From Syntrophobacteraceae bacterium (GTDB lineage Bacteria; Desulfobacterota; Syntrophobacteria; Syntrophobacterales; Syntrophobacteraceae): 35,067 nt of DNA. Numbering within the stretch: the first letter of the stretch is position 1; every line of letters starts with the position of its first letter. Shown here piece by piece: positions 89 through 26,956 of the stretch. A program made the translations under genes and the position numbers. The notes beneath the pieces were generated by a model. The model did no database searches. It had not been told where the DNA came from and was given only the letters and a program-made list of their open reading frames with translations. The stretch spans positions 1 through 35,067 of the forward strand of contig JARLHO010000174.1 of assembly GCA_031292215.1 (NCBI GenBank), in the 5' to 3' direction.

Positions 89-156
89 GTGATGTATTCG
101 CCGAAGTTTCATTCTCGTTCAAACAGCGTCCAAAGACGGGCGGCGCGGCTCATATG
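89..156 (+). repeat. dispersed repeat, AAGTTTC family, copy 1
   Basis: A segment with the core AAGTTTCATTCTCG followed by a GGCGGCGCGGCTC box recurs in degenerate form at 503-569 (same strand) and at 3855-3909 (opposite strand). All copies are intergenic. The match is by eye, and the family function is unknown. Confidence 0.6.
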
Positions 157-170
157 AAACATCAGTTGTA

Positions 171-200
171 GGTTGGGCTAAGCGCAGCGCAGCCCAACAA
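171..200 (+). repeat. 30-bp palindromic dispersed repeat, copy 1
   Basis: The arms GTTGGGCT (172-179) and AGCCCAAC (191-198) flank an 11-nt loop, giving a REP-like hairpin. Positions 3931-3960 are the exact reverse complement of this 30-bp segment. A shortened copy lies at 5685-5708. Confidence 0.75.
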
Positions 201-288
201 ACAGGAGCGCCGGTTGGGCGCAATCCATCGACTCTTGACGCATCTTTTTTGAAACGTCTGAGTGAAAGTGCCGTGCCCCCCCTCGAAT

Positions 289-490
289 CTTACAATTACC
301 CACACATACGCCCACTTACCCCTTAGCGGAGACTCCCAAGAAGGGGCTTGGCCCGATCGCCCCCCTTTTTTTGCAAAGGTGGGGTTGGGGCCGCTGCAAT
401 GACGCGCATGGACCGGCCGGGCTCGCTCGCTCCCCTTATTTGCAACTTTGCAAAAGGAGATAGGTGGGCGTATATGTGGGTAATTGTAAG
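289..490. mobile_element. MITE-like element, 202 bp, with 30-bp TIRs and 9-bp target duplication
   Basis: The terminal inverted repeats are 289-318 (begins CTTACAATTACCC) and 461-490 (ends GGGTAATTGTAAG). They match at about 28 of 30 positions. The element is bounded on both sides by the same 9 bp, CCCTCGAAT, at 280-288 and 491-499, as expected for a target-site duplication. The 142-bp interior has no convincing coding frame, so the element is non-autonomous and would need a transposase in trans. Its IS family is not recognised; a 9-bp duplication fits several families. Confidence 0.85.
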
Positions 491-502
491 CCCTCGAATC
501 GG

Positions 503-569
503 GGTGATGCGCTGCCTAAAGTTTCGTCCTCGATAAAACCCTGTCCCAAAACGGGGCGGCGCCGCTCTT
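503..569 (+). repeat. dispersed repeat, AAGTTTC family, copy 2
   Basis: This is a degenerate same-strand copy of 89-156. It shares a leading GGGTGATG, the AAGTTTCGTCCTCG core and a GGGGCGGCGCCGCTC box. It lies just right of the MITE-like element. Confidence 0.55.
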
Positions 570-597
570 GCCCGGGTCGCACCCATGGTGAGGAAAA

Positions 598-645
598 CCC
601 GGGACAATCGCTTTAAAATTTAGCGGATCCTCCCGGGGTTTTTTT
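598..645 (+). terminator. Rho-independent terminator
   Basis: The stem CCCGGGA (598-604) pairs with TCCCGGG (631-637), with an inner CGCT/AGCG pairing, and is followed by seven T residues (639-645). No intact gene lies directly upstream, so it may be left over from a lost gene. A second hairpin (CCCGGGT/ACCCGGG, about 570-600) overlaps its 5' arm. Confidence 0.6.
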
Positions 646-3909: not shown

Positions 3910-3930
3910 GACGTTTCCTATACGATTAAT

Positions 3931-3960
3931 TTGTTGGGCTGCGCTGCGCTTAGCCCAACC
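3931..3960 (-). repeat. 30-bp palindromic dispersed repeat, copy 2
   Basis: This is the exact reverse complement of 171-200. Its arms GTTGGGCT (3933-3940) and AGCCCAAC (3952-3959) form a hairpin upstream of the gene at 3995. Confidence 0.75.
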
Positions 3961-3994
3961 GACCGATGCAGCTTTCGGAAAAGAGGTGTGAATT

Positions 3995-14316: not shown

Positions 14317-15584
14317 AATCCCACGCGGAGGAATTTATGCGGGAGCAAATTTTGGAGATGGGCAAAAGGGCCCGCGAGGCCTCTCAGGCCATGGCTACGG
14401 CCGGCAGCGACATAAAGCGCCAGGCTCTCGAGGCGATGGCCTCTGCCCTGGAACTCCAGCGCGACGCAATTGAGGCCGAAAACCGCAAAGACGTGGAAGA
14501 GGCCGAGCGAAAGGGACTGGCAAAGCCCAAGATAGACCGGTTGATCATCGGCCCTAAGGTTTTAGACGAGATGATCGAAGGACTAAAAGAGGTCTCGAGG
14601 CTCCCGGACCCGGTGGGAGAGATCACCCGGATGTGGACCAGGCCAAACGGGCTCCAGGTCGGTAAGATGCGCATTCCGCTGGGGGTTATCGGCATCGTCT
14701 ACGAATCGCGCCCCAACGTTACGGTGGATTCGGCGGCTCTTTGCATAAAGGCCGGAAACGCGGTGATTTTGCGCGGAGGCTCGGAGGCTTTTCACTCCAA
14801 CAACTGCCTTGCCGCTATTTTAAAAGAGTCGCTCCGGCAGGTGGGACTTCCCGAAGACGGCGTGCAATTTGTGGGGACGGTCGACCGCCAGGCGGTGCTC
14901 GATCTTTTGGGCCTGGAGGAGTACATAGACGTCATGATCCCTCGGGGGGGCGAAGAGCTCATTCGCTTTGTGGTCGAAAACGCGCGGATGCCCGTTTTAA
15001 AACATTACAAGGGCGTCTGCCATATCTACGTGGATTCGGGCGCGGATATCGAAATGGCCCGAGGGATTTGCCTCAACGCCAAGACCCAGAGACCGGCCAC
15101 CTGCAACGCAATGGAGACCTTGCTGGTTCACAGGGAGATTGCCGGGAGTTTTCTGCCCCGGGTGGCCGAGGATTTCAGGCAAAGCGGCGTCGAACTGCGG
15201 GGCTGCGAGGCGACCAGGGCGTTTGTGCCATGCGTTGCTGCAACCGAGGAGGACTGGCATGCGGAATATCTCGACCTCGTCCTCGCGGTGCGTATCGTGG
15301 CGGATATGGACGAAGCTGTCCGCCACATCGCCCGGTACGGCTCGCAGCATACCGAAGCCATCGTTACCGAAAACTTCCAGCGGGCGCACCTCTTCGTTAG
15401 GCAGGTGCAGTCTTCGCTTGTGCTGGTCAATGCCTCGACGCGCTTTAACGACGGGTTCCAGCTTGGTCTCGGGGCCGAGATCGGCATCTCGACCTCCAAG
15501 CTCCATGCTTTCGGCCCCATGGGGCTTGAAGAGCTTACGACAACCAAGTTCATTGCCTTTGGCAACGGCCAGTTGCGCGGGTGA
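14313..15584 (+). CDS. proA: glutamate-5-semialdehyde dehydrogenase (gamma-glutamyl phosphate reductase)
   Basis: ProA reduces gamma-glutamyl phosphate with NADPH to glutamate semialdehyde (EC 1.2.1.41), the second step of proline synthesis. This 423-aa protein carries the family segment [41 protein letters not shown], and the catalytic cysteine in [12 protein letters not shown] (C264). It closes with [10 protein letters not shown]. The 4-bp overlap with proB implies coupled expression. The dispersed AATCCTGT repeats begin only about 10 bp after the stop. Confidence 0.97.
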
Positions 15585-15593
15585 TGACGGGAT

Positions 15594-15691
15594 TGACAGG
15601 ATTAAGAATTTTTGCTGTATCCGGGTTCTTTCGGCTCGAAGGGAAATGACTTCGAACCAAACCTAATCCTGTAAATCCTGTTAATCCTGTC
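15594..15691 (+). repeat. AATCCTGT palindromic element, copy A
   Basis: The element opens with GACAGGATTAAG and closes with CCTGTTAATCCTGTC. An inner dyad lies around GGGTTCTTTCGGCTCGAAGG and GACTTCGAACC. It is followed by CCAAAAAGCCTTTGTTTTTTGGGCG. The outer ends are complementary, so the element can form a cruciform. It recurs at 15740, 25634 and 25799. Confidence 0.8.
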
Positions 15692-15739
15692 CAAAAAGCC
15701 TTTGTTTTTTGGGCGTAGGGGCGAAGAGCAAAACTTTAT

Positions 15740-15853
15740 GACAGGATTACAGGATTAACAGGATTAAGAATTTTTGCTGTATCCGGGTTCTTTCGGCTCG
15801 AAGGGAAACGACTTCGAACCAAACCTAATCCTGTAAATCCTGTTAATCCTGTC
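15740..15853 (+). repeat. AATCCTGT palindromic element, copy B
   Basis: This is a near-identical direct copy of 15594-15691 with extra CAGGATTA units at the left end. A partial right half follows at about 15900-15960 (TTCGAATAAAATAAAATCCTGTC). Together with copy A it fills the 393-bp gap between proA and nadD, which holds no other gene. Confidence 0.8.
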
Positions 15854-15977
15854 CAAAAAGCCTTGTTTTTTTGGGCGCGGGGGATCAAGAAGGTTAGTTG
15901 GCGCAATCATAGATTCTTTTGAAGCGAAGTGAAATAACTTCGAATAAAATAAAATCCTGTCAACGGAGCAAAAATAG

Positions 15978-23266: not shown

Positions 23267-23341
23267 TGGGGCGTCGCCAAGCGGTAAGGCACGGGTCTTT
23301 GGAATCCGCATTCGGAGGTTCGAATCCTCCCGCCCCAGCCA
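23267..23341 (+). tRNA. tRNA-Gln (anticodon TTG)
   Basis: The acceptor TGGGGCG (23267-23273) pairs with CGCCCCA (23331-23337). The anticodon loop is CTTTGGA with TTG at 23299-23301. The T-arm is GGAGG TTCGAAT CCTCC, and the 3' CCA is encoded (23339-23341). An eight-T run follows directly. It sits between ispE and prs on the same strand. Confidence 0.95.
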
Positions 23342-25633: not shown

Positions 25634-25749
25634 GACAGGATTAACAGGATTAACAGGATTAGCAATTTTGGCTAAATCCGGATTCTTCCGGAATCGAAGG
25701 GAAATGACTTCGAACAAAACCTAATCCTGTAAATCCTGTTAATCCTGTC
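25634..25749 (+). repeat. AATCCTGT palindromic element, copy C
   Basis: This matches 15740-15853 with extra CAGGATTA units, in the same orientation. Both are followed by a GCCTTTGTTTTTTTGGGCG-like linker and GCGAAGAGCAAAACTTTT. Confidence 0.8.
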
Positions 25750-25798
25750 TAAAAAAGCCTTTGTTTTTTTGGGCGCAGGGGCGAAGAGCAAAACTTTT

Positions 25799-25902
25799 GA
25801 CAGGTTAACAGGTTAACAGGATTGAAAATTTTGGCTATATCCGGGTTCTTGCGGAGCGAAGGGAAGTGACGTCGAATAAAATAAAATCCTGTAAATCCTG
25901 TC
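25799..25902 (+). repeat. AATCCTGT palindromic element, copy D
   Basis: This is the fourth, more degenerate copy; its right end resembles the half copy at 15900-15960. Copies C and D fill the gap between pth and the convergent rodZ-like gene. Confidence 0.75.
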
Positions 25903-25909
25903 CAAACCT

Positions 25910-26956
25910 CTAGCCTTGCGCCGCCTTGGCGTAATCGGGCAGGCGGAACCGCAGAACGCGGCCGGATTTGTGCGGGGCTTCCAGCGGGTGATCGTTCCAC
26001 TGCATCCGCACCCCTCCCGCGTTGCCGACTACAACCTCCAGGCTCTTGGCCGCAACCCACTCCCTGTGGTCTCCGGGATGGAGCAATTCCGAGCGGGGTT
26101 TTTGGCCGTCGATTTTTACCTGGATCCAAACCTTGCCTTCCGCCTCCACCGTGAACCGGCCGCCTGTGAACGGCTGATTATTTAAAACGGTGGCCCCACC
26201 TGGTTGCGCATCACTTTTTTGGTTTTCATCCGTTTTCCCGGCTTCGCCTGCGGTCTGTGGAGCGGGGTTTGCCGGTGCGGGCGTGGTCGGTTTGGCGACC
26301 TTGGGCTTTTCGCTTGATGGCGGCAATCCCGGCAGTCCCACCGGCAGGTTTTGAGAGGTGGGCGGCTGATTACTTAAAACGGTGGCCGGTTTTTGGTTTT
26401 CATCCGTTTTGCCGGCCCCGCCCGCAGTCTGTGGAGCGGGGTTTGCCGGTGCGGGCGTGGTCGGTTTGGCGACTTTGGGCTTTTCTTTGGATGCCGGCAA
26501 TTCCTGCAGTTCCACAGGCAGGTTCTGCTGGGAAAAGATCCTGTTTGCATTCGGTGGGGCATACAGGGTGGAGCGTCTTTTCGATATCCATTCTCCGCCG
26601 TAGAAAACGGCTGCGGAGGCCAAAAATAAGACCAATACGGGAAGGGCGACCATTCTGCGGCGCTTATAGAGAGTTTTCTGCAACCTCCCGTATCTTTTTA
26701 TTCCTTCCTCCTGGACGTTGCAGGCCTCAATTTGGGAAGCGTACTGTACAAGCAGCGGTTCGGACTCGATGTGCAAGGCCTCGCAGTAGGCGCGAACGAT
26801 ATTGCGCAGCAAAATGGAGGCGCCGAATCGCTCGAAGTCCCAGCTCTCGAAAGACTCGAGCATCGATACGGAGATCCCGCTACGCTCCGAGAGGGCTTCC
26901 ACCGTCAGGCTGCAGTTCAGGCGCTCGTTTTTTAAAAACTCGGCAAGTTCTTTCAT
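25910..26956 (-). CDS. RodZ-like protein: Xre-type HTH, single TM segment, DUF4115 domain
   Basis: The first 90 residues form a helix-turn-helix of the RodZ type (LAEFLKNERLNCSLTVEALSE). A single membrane segment follows at about 102-120 (VALPVLVLFLASAAVFYGG) after a basic patch, which gives a cytoplasm-in, periplasm-out topology. The C-terminal 90 residues (FTVEAEGKVWIQVKIDGQ onward) match the DUF4115 periplasmic domain. RodZ links MreB to the cell wall and sets cell shape; that role is inferred. The Pro/Ala-rich linker between them is tandemly duplicated: EKPKVAKPTTPAPANPAPQ appears twice. It lies 18 bp after the surA-like gene in the mfd-surA order. Confidence 0.8.
   Translation of the reverse strand: MKELAEFLKNERLNCSLTVEALSERSGISVSMLESFESWDFERFGASILLRNIVRAYCEALHIESEPLLVQYASQIEACNVQEEGIKRYGRLQKTLYKRRRMVALPVLVLFLASAAVFYGGEWISKRRSTLYAPPNANRIFSQQNLPVELQELPASKEKPKVAKPTTPAPANPAPQTAGGAGKTDENQKPATVLSNQPPTSQNLPVGLPGLPPSSEKPKVAKPTTPAPANPAPQTAGEAGKTDENQKSDAQPGGATVLNNQPFTGGRFTVEAEGKVWIQVKIDGQKPRSELLHPGDHREWVAAKSLEVVVGNAGGVRMQWNDHPLEAPHKSGRVLRFRLPDYAKAAQG
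26221..26540. repeat. 174-bp tandem duplication inside the rodZ-like gene
   Basis: GGTTTTCATCCGTTTT occurs at 26221 and again at 26395, an offset of 174 bp (58 codons). GGTTTGCCGGTGCGGGCGTG also recurs. The duplication keeps the reading frame. Length polymorphism between strains would be expected. Confidence 0.8.

Follow-up and report, generated by a model that had tools for sequence, protein, structure and literature searches.

What is the short sequence bounded by inverted repeats at the beginning of this contig, how did it come to lie there, and did it arrive recently? The earlier note on the window (by which we mean the whole stretch of 35,067 nucleotides) took it for a MITE-like insertion that had moved recently, through a transposase encoded elsewhere in the genome.

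The element is 202 bp long (Table 1) and is flanked on both sides by CCCTCGAAT; the two copies of this 9-mer lie where the earlier note had read them, and so do the 30-nt inverted arms, which are 93% complementary (28/30) and 142 nt apart. Short size and terminal inverted repeats, as expected of a MITE, are therefore found both here (202 bp, 28/30) and in the family to which the element belongs (126-558 bp). It contains no transposase gene. Indeed, the only listed ORF of at least 80 aa over the element (323-607, minus strand; 94 aa with a TTG start, unsupported as coding) runs out of it, which bears out the claim that the element has no coding frame. The strand folds far more strongly than shuffled sequences do (z -7.5), and this is expected of any sequence having such arms. 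At gathering thresholds no Rfam family lies over the element, and the one hit found anywhere in the window is to a tRNA (23267-23338). Beside the element, at 844-1340, short frames resemble by eye a broken TPR-type gene, which we mention as a candidate.

Table 1. Features of the element and its surroundings (positions in the window)
Feature	Position	Strand	Basis or remark
Interspersed repeat hosting the insertion, left part	104..288	+	Element-free paralogues: C59 (whole part), C12 and C95 (partial)
Left 9-bp target duplication, CCCTCGAAT	280..288	.	Sequence; 9-bp rule across the family
Left terminal inverted repeat, CTTACAATTACCCACACATACGCCCACTTA	289..318	+	First 20 nt: IS50-subgroup end consensus 7/7
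Non-autonomous 202-bp element	289..490	.	Family consensus 217 bp; window copy short by 15 bp after ~390
Internal REP-like palindromic module	356..390	+	Similar 33-mer in the genome near and away from MITE-family ends
Right terminal inverted repeat	461..490	-	28/30 versus left; first 20 nt: IS50-subgroup consensus 7/7
Right 9-bp target duplication, CCCTCGAAT	491..499	.	Sequence
Same interspersed repeat, right part, beyond the element	500..566	+	Alignment with element-free sites
Expected end of the complete driving IS in this species			CTKACAATTACCCACACAT

The earlier note suggested that the genome be searched with the 30-bp ends, and the search uncovered a large family. With up to 3 mismatches allowed, the own genome (G000; 4,885,943 bases in 177 contigs, 96.9% complete) has 150 occurrences of the 30-nt end and 194 of a 24-nt core; a 21-nt core, allowed up to 2, has 195. 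The reversed patterns gave zero matches each in this genome. Elsewhere the reversed 21-nt control found two other genomes, with one match each. Since the 30-nt end is seen 150 times and its reversed pattern never, a chance origin of the ends is excluded. Used as a DNA query together with its repeats, the element returned at least 118 matching pieces from the own genome, a lower bound with 40 of 254 first-look candidates scored; the best 40 of those pieces, the window copy included, span 176-226 bases at 81-100% identity. We further examined 110 stretches of this genome (367,377 bases), which contain 174 ends. A script joined neighbours that had at most 7 mismatches in 26 and were separated by less than 1500 bases, yielding 60 paired elements of 126-558 bp and leaving 54 ends partnerless. 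The main size class of 202-219 bp holds 36 of the 60. By eye nearly all partnerless ends run into the family interior, the exceptions being C80:7631 and the weak C38:3792; the end at C169:13255 diverges from that interior after about 55 bases. From the 195 ends we estimate the family at roughly 100 copies in 4.9 Mb. This is a heavy load, and with several copies at contig edges the family is best masked ahead of any calling of regulatory repeats.

The duplication can be judged much better from the family than from a single copy. Two of the 60 paired elements had insufficient flank and were omitted; among the remaining 58, a 9-bp repeat is perfect in 22 and matches at 8/9 or better in 32. Other lengths from 5 to 13 give at most one perfect case, and at most three with no more than one mismatch. 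When the flanks were shuffled 1000 times, the mean number at 8/9 or better was 1.21 and the maximum 6. Thus there are many copies with duplications of a fixed length, 9 bp (32 observed versus 1.21). There is a C at both 289 and 500, so the window copy alone is compatible with a 10-bp repeat; it is the distribution across the family that makes us read its duplication as 9 bp. The 26 elements that fall under 8/9 could reflect nesting, recombination or decay.

We also looked for sites that lack the element. With the window flanks joined, a search of the own genome gave 53 matching pieces, and 28 fetched loci were compared. Three of these sites, on C59, C12 (present under two locus names) and C95, align through the junction, at 69-75% identity to the window flanks and with gaps at or near the junction, for which reason we call them related rather than identical sites; they are paralogues in the own genome, not orthologous empty sites of a congener. 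These three sites, together with the duplications, support a MITE-like insertion with a 9-bp target duplication. Judged from the alignments, the element is inserted into a member of another interspersed repeat. Repeats of this second family, which contain GTTGGGCTAAGCGCAGCGCAGCCCAAC, surround the insertion (168-201 and 3930-3963 in the window, and 104-288 with 500-566) and have many matches in the genome. The window holds yet another repeat, with 139-bp units at a spacing of 162 bp, in two places about 10 kb apart (15583-15883 and 25641-25941).

Insertion takes place mostly between a run of C on the left and a run of G on the right. We scored 31 sites that have good duplications and flanks of 20 bases: the number of C among the six left-edge bases plus that of G among the six right-edge bases averages 7.65 out of 12, versus 3.29 at random positions drawn from the same stretches; a score of 9 or more is reached by 8/31 sites and by 0.13% of random positions. 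This contrast is somewhat overstated, because the score was devised once base counts had been seen for many of these sites and the random positions are not intergenic only. Palindromic pairs average 5.42 of 15 at the target sites and 3.74 at random ones, and 7 of the 31 well-marked sites are similar to the REP-like repeat of this genome.

What kind of transposase could recognise such ends? Table 1 of 'IS4 family goes genomic' (PMC2266710) gives for the IS50 subgroup of the IS4 family the end consensus CW------Y---CA-A--W- and duplications of 8-9 bp. Both window ends match this consensus at 7/7, and the 9-bp duplications of the family fall within that range. Agreement with other subgroups is poorer: ISPepr1 5/8, IS231 3/8, ISH8 2/4, IS4Sa and IS1634 2/3 each, IS4 and IS701 2/7 each, ISH3 1/4. 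For IS10 the same table gives a consensus of CT only and repeats of 9 bp. The window ends fit this two-base consensus (2/2); the ends alone therefore do not tell IS50 and IS10 apart, and it is the Tn5 domain described below that decides.

The domain comes from a congener. Ends of this type occur in two of 10 congeners, 11 in G001 and two in G007. In G001 the distance from end to contig edge is about 70-204 bases, and the 11 ends fall into two kinds: five lead to an ATG, and six, read in reverse, give the final 58 codons of a transposase gene. These 58 residues match PF02281 (Dimer_Tnp_Tn5) at 3.4e-11 and NF033590 at 8.2e-12, the latter under the whole-protein cut-off of that family. A search for Tn5 structures with this very short query returned none. 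The two ends of the congener IS share their first 17 and 19 bases with the window left end and match the IS50-subgroup consensus at 7/7; past 26 nt the two ends compared show no likeness to the MITE. Among 30 pairings of left and right flanks in G001, five have a perfect repeat: L094/L090 with an unambiguous one of 9 bp, L102 with L080, L086 or L092, also 9 bp (at most one of these can be the true partner), and L100/L092 with 10 bp. The congener IS thus shares end bases, a 9-bp duplication and the genus with the window MITE and differs from it in encoding the C-terminal part of a Tn5-type transposase. It is known from its two ends alone, its interior being absent from the bin.

A relative with both ends is found in a different phylum. 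The 58 residues match 135 plasmid records, four of which were fetched. One is pRMAR01 of Rhodothermus marinus, which carries an IS4-family element with the ends CTTACTTTTACCCACAAGTGC and CTTACCTTTACCCACAAA (also given as CTTACTTTTACCCACA and CTTACCTTTACCCACA), both 7/7 on the IS50-subgroup consensus. Directly outside both ends lies CTCTACATC, a 9-bp duplication, followed by C-rich left and G-rich right flanks. These ends fit the IS1634 consensus as well (3/3, versus 2/3 for the window), but IS1634 duplications are 5-6 bp (PMC2266710). The annotated transposase of the plasmid element (WP_244870294.1, 390 residues) hits NF033590 with 5.5e-123 and structures of the Tn5 transposase with about 3e-32; over 52 residues it shows 50% identity to the G001 fragment. 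The N-terminal part of the gene is in a different frame from the rest, so this copy looks broken; our reading of it is unaffected, since its ends, duplication and family assignment still hold. The element resembles the MITE in its CTTAC..TTACCCACA ends, its 9-bp duplication and its C-rich/G-rich flanks, but it is about 1.5 kb long, has a transposase gene (frame-broken near the start), and its ends are only partly identical. An inverted-repeat scan of the other three fetched elements (two from Gloeothece, one from Paraburkholderia) found no MITE-like ends.

In the 96.9% complete assembly of the own genome we found no intact transposase with MITE ends, only relics; an autonomous partner in the same genome, usual for a MITE and not required, is thus missing from it. 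Such a partner may be lost or unbinned. PF14706 has no match in this genome, and PF01609 matches five places, none of them with MITE ends (matches with 7-8 mismatches in 23 were taken as chance). Below its cut-off, NF033590 picks up a relic split into two pieces (C175) and a broken remnant (C102). The Tn5-like fragment on C175 was considered as the driver and rejected, being a relic of a different IS4 element. No transposase was recognised in the ORF lists of C80:7631 and C169:13255, whose interiors are unusual. Consequently the full-length IS with matching ends for which the earlier note advised a search of the genome did not turn up, and the type of driver has to be deduced from relatives. 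Of the proposal that the transposase is encoded elsewhere in the genome, the existence of a driver type with matching ends survives, by virtue of the congener and Rhodothermus, and an intact copy of it in the own genome was not found by these searches.

The whole element matches 4/147 genomes, its own and, partially and weakly, those of the congeners G005, G007 and G009, and it has no match among plasmids and phages. At up to 2 mismatches the ends occur in 6/39 genomes of the order, and with a looser-spelt end pattern at 1 mismatch in 2/395 genomes of the phylum sample, the own genome being counted in both. G083, an outlier in the phylum sample, carries a single similar end, with no transposase recognised in the 3 kb read. 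The end pattern was not found in viral_contigs. An exact end scan of genome_contigs gave 12 stretches, 11 of them in MAG DX1.bin82 (labelled Deltaproteobacteria) and one in an Actinomycetes MAG. The latter is a congener IS end at positions 1-90 of L125, at the margin of a contig (JAKABW010000031.1) assigned to that Actinomycetes MAG, through either misbinning or transfer. Congener G007 also has a 220-bp element with related ends and a different interior (L134 1302-1521, G007:C11).

Given the ends, the family-wide 9-bp duplications, the element-free sites, the biased choice of targets and the agreement of the ends with the Tn5-domain sequence of the congener, all of which are observed, we read the element as a MITE mobilised in trans by a transposase of the IS4 family, IS50/Tn5 type, with a probability of about 0.9. 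It is the 7/7 agreement of the ends, the congener ends flanking a Tn5 dimerisation domain and the Rhodothermus relative that point to this type of driver. The element would then be a transposon reduced to two ends, which we predict to bind transposase, and a gene-free interior. An IS with the same ends, presumably once present in the own lineage, would supply the enzyme, which by analogy with Tn5 would bind both ends and excise the element by cut-and-paste; joining to a target whose strands are cut 9 bases apart, followed by repair, would leave the 9-bp duplication. The enzyme would favour sites having a C-run at the left and a G-run at the right, palindromic repeats among them, and here it would have entered a different interspersed repeat.

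Could another family or subgroup with 9-bp duplications drive the MITE instead, such as IS10 or the ISAba12 type proposed for MITEAba12? Duplications of 9 bp are indeed common to IS10 (PMC2266710) and to MITEAba12 of Acinetobacter, which keeps them in 40% of 90 copies (PMC6382973), and the two-base end consensus of IS10 fits. MITEAba12 is thus comparable as a MITE with 9-bp duplications, but both its ends and its proposed driver are different: the ends of the IS listed as related to it start with GGCTTTGTTGC, and those of the window family with CTTACAATTACCCACA. With the IS50 consensus at 7/7 and the congener ends on sequence encoding a Tn5 dimerisation domain, we consider a driver of another kind very improbable. 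Even less credit can be given to the idea that the element is an interspersed palindromic repeat of the REP/ERIC kind, spread without a DDE transposase. Strong strand folding (z -7.5) and a REP-like module that is also found away from MITE ends would suit it, but long conserved ends, 9-bp duplications, element-free sites and the lack of an Rfam match to the element at gathering thresholds do not. At the level of sequence, 30-bp ends with 9-bp duplications speak for a DDE element over a REP/REPIN.

Set beside known systems, the element is a well-formed MITE, probably of the IS50/Tn5 type, ordinary in kind and new as a family so far as the searches reach. IS50 itself (IS50R of Tn5) agrees in its ends (7/7) and its 8-9 bp duplications; unlike it, the MITE has no transposase gene, is 202 bp instead of the 1350-1550 bp in the tabulated data, and prefers C-run/G-run targets. 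Tn5 targets are described as palindromic with frequent GC pairs at the repeat edges (PMC1525189). The same paper describes ISRm22, an IS4-family element of Sinorhizobium that inserts in REP palindromes, but this is a complete IS of subgroup IS4Sa with 6-bp duplications. In size and copy number the Chunjie MITE of Geobacter uraniireducens is similar: it is 178-235 bp long, and 38 copies have both ends and repeats while 57 are partial (PMC10969869). No Geobacter is among the matches listed by the exact end scan of genome_contigs. Geobacter was formerly placed in the Deltaproteobacteria. A literature query for MITEs with IS4 or IS50 gave no IS50-driven MITE, judged mostly by titles and the beginnings of abstracts. 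An uncultured lineage hereby gains a defined MITE family with a named type of driver, and the IS50/Tn5 subgroup a gene-free family.

With regard to age, the data do not support the view that the window copy moved recently. Divergence was calculated from the 36 copies of 200-220 bp (actual lengths 202-219 bp), with gapped columns excluded; identity between pairs of them averages 93.8% and reaches 99.1% at best. The window copy is 6.0% off the 217-bp consensus (mean of the copies 3.5%, maximum 9.7%) and short by 15 bp. Its nearest relative is 94.9% identical, and only 4 of the 36 copies are more isolated, which makes it the fifth. Because of this divergence, the missing 15 bp and the distance to its nearest relative, the insertion is not notably recent, and it is probably an older member of the family despite its perfect duplication. 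Some other copies are up to 99.1% identical to one another, so the family probably stayed active after this insertion. Whether it still is concerns its present activity and not the identity of the element. It may be a relic whose driving IS has been lost from the species, leaving the copies immobile, and we give this somewhat less than even odds: no intact transposase was found in the own assembly and the window copy is 6% off the consensus, but copies that are 99.1% alike argue otherwise, and the interior of the multicopy IS of congener G001 is likewise missing from its bin, so a gap in a draft bin carries little weight.

The REP-like module inside the element deserves separate consideration. 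A 33-mer from it has 159 copies in the own genome and none in 10 congeners at up to 3 mismatches. Looser matches (80-87%) are present in the congeners G005, G007 and G009, so the module is expanded in the own genome rather than unique to it. Twenty exact occurrences were read, and a MITE end lies within 300 bases in 15 of them and in none of the other five; example loci in the own genome are L280, L283, L289, L292 and L295. It is tempting to speculate that the MITE carries its own preferred C-run/G-run palindrome, so that each insertion creates a new target and MITE and REP-like repeat have multiplied together. We find this rather unlikely at present; if true, it would provide an example, open to testing, of a transposon that propagates the sites it inserts into.

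A last observation concerns the IS4 relatives in the order. MITE ends are absent from L220-L223, a 4-mismatch match in L222 being taken as chance. In these four and in L224, five IS4-family transposase genes or relics in all (G036:C8, G020:C8, G001:C164, G025:C60 and G000:C175), a run of 8-9 A precedes the Tn5-dimerisation part, which continues in a different frame. Programmed slippage, in a family described as having a single ORF, and parallel decay are both candidate explanations.
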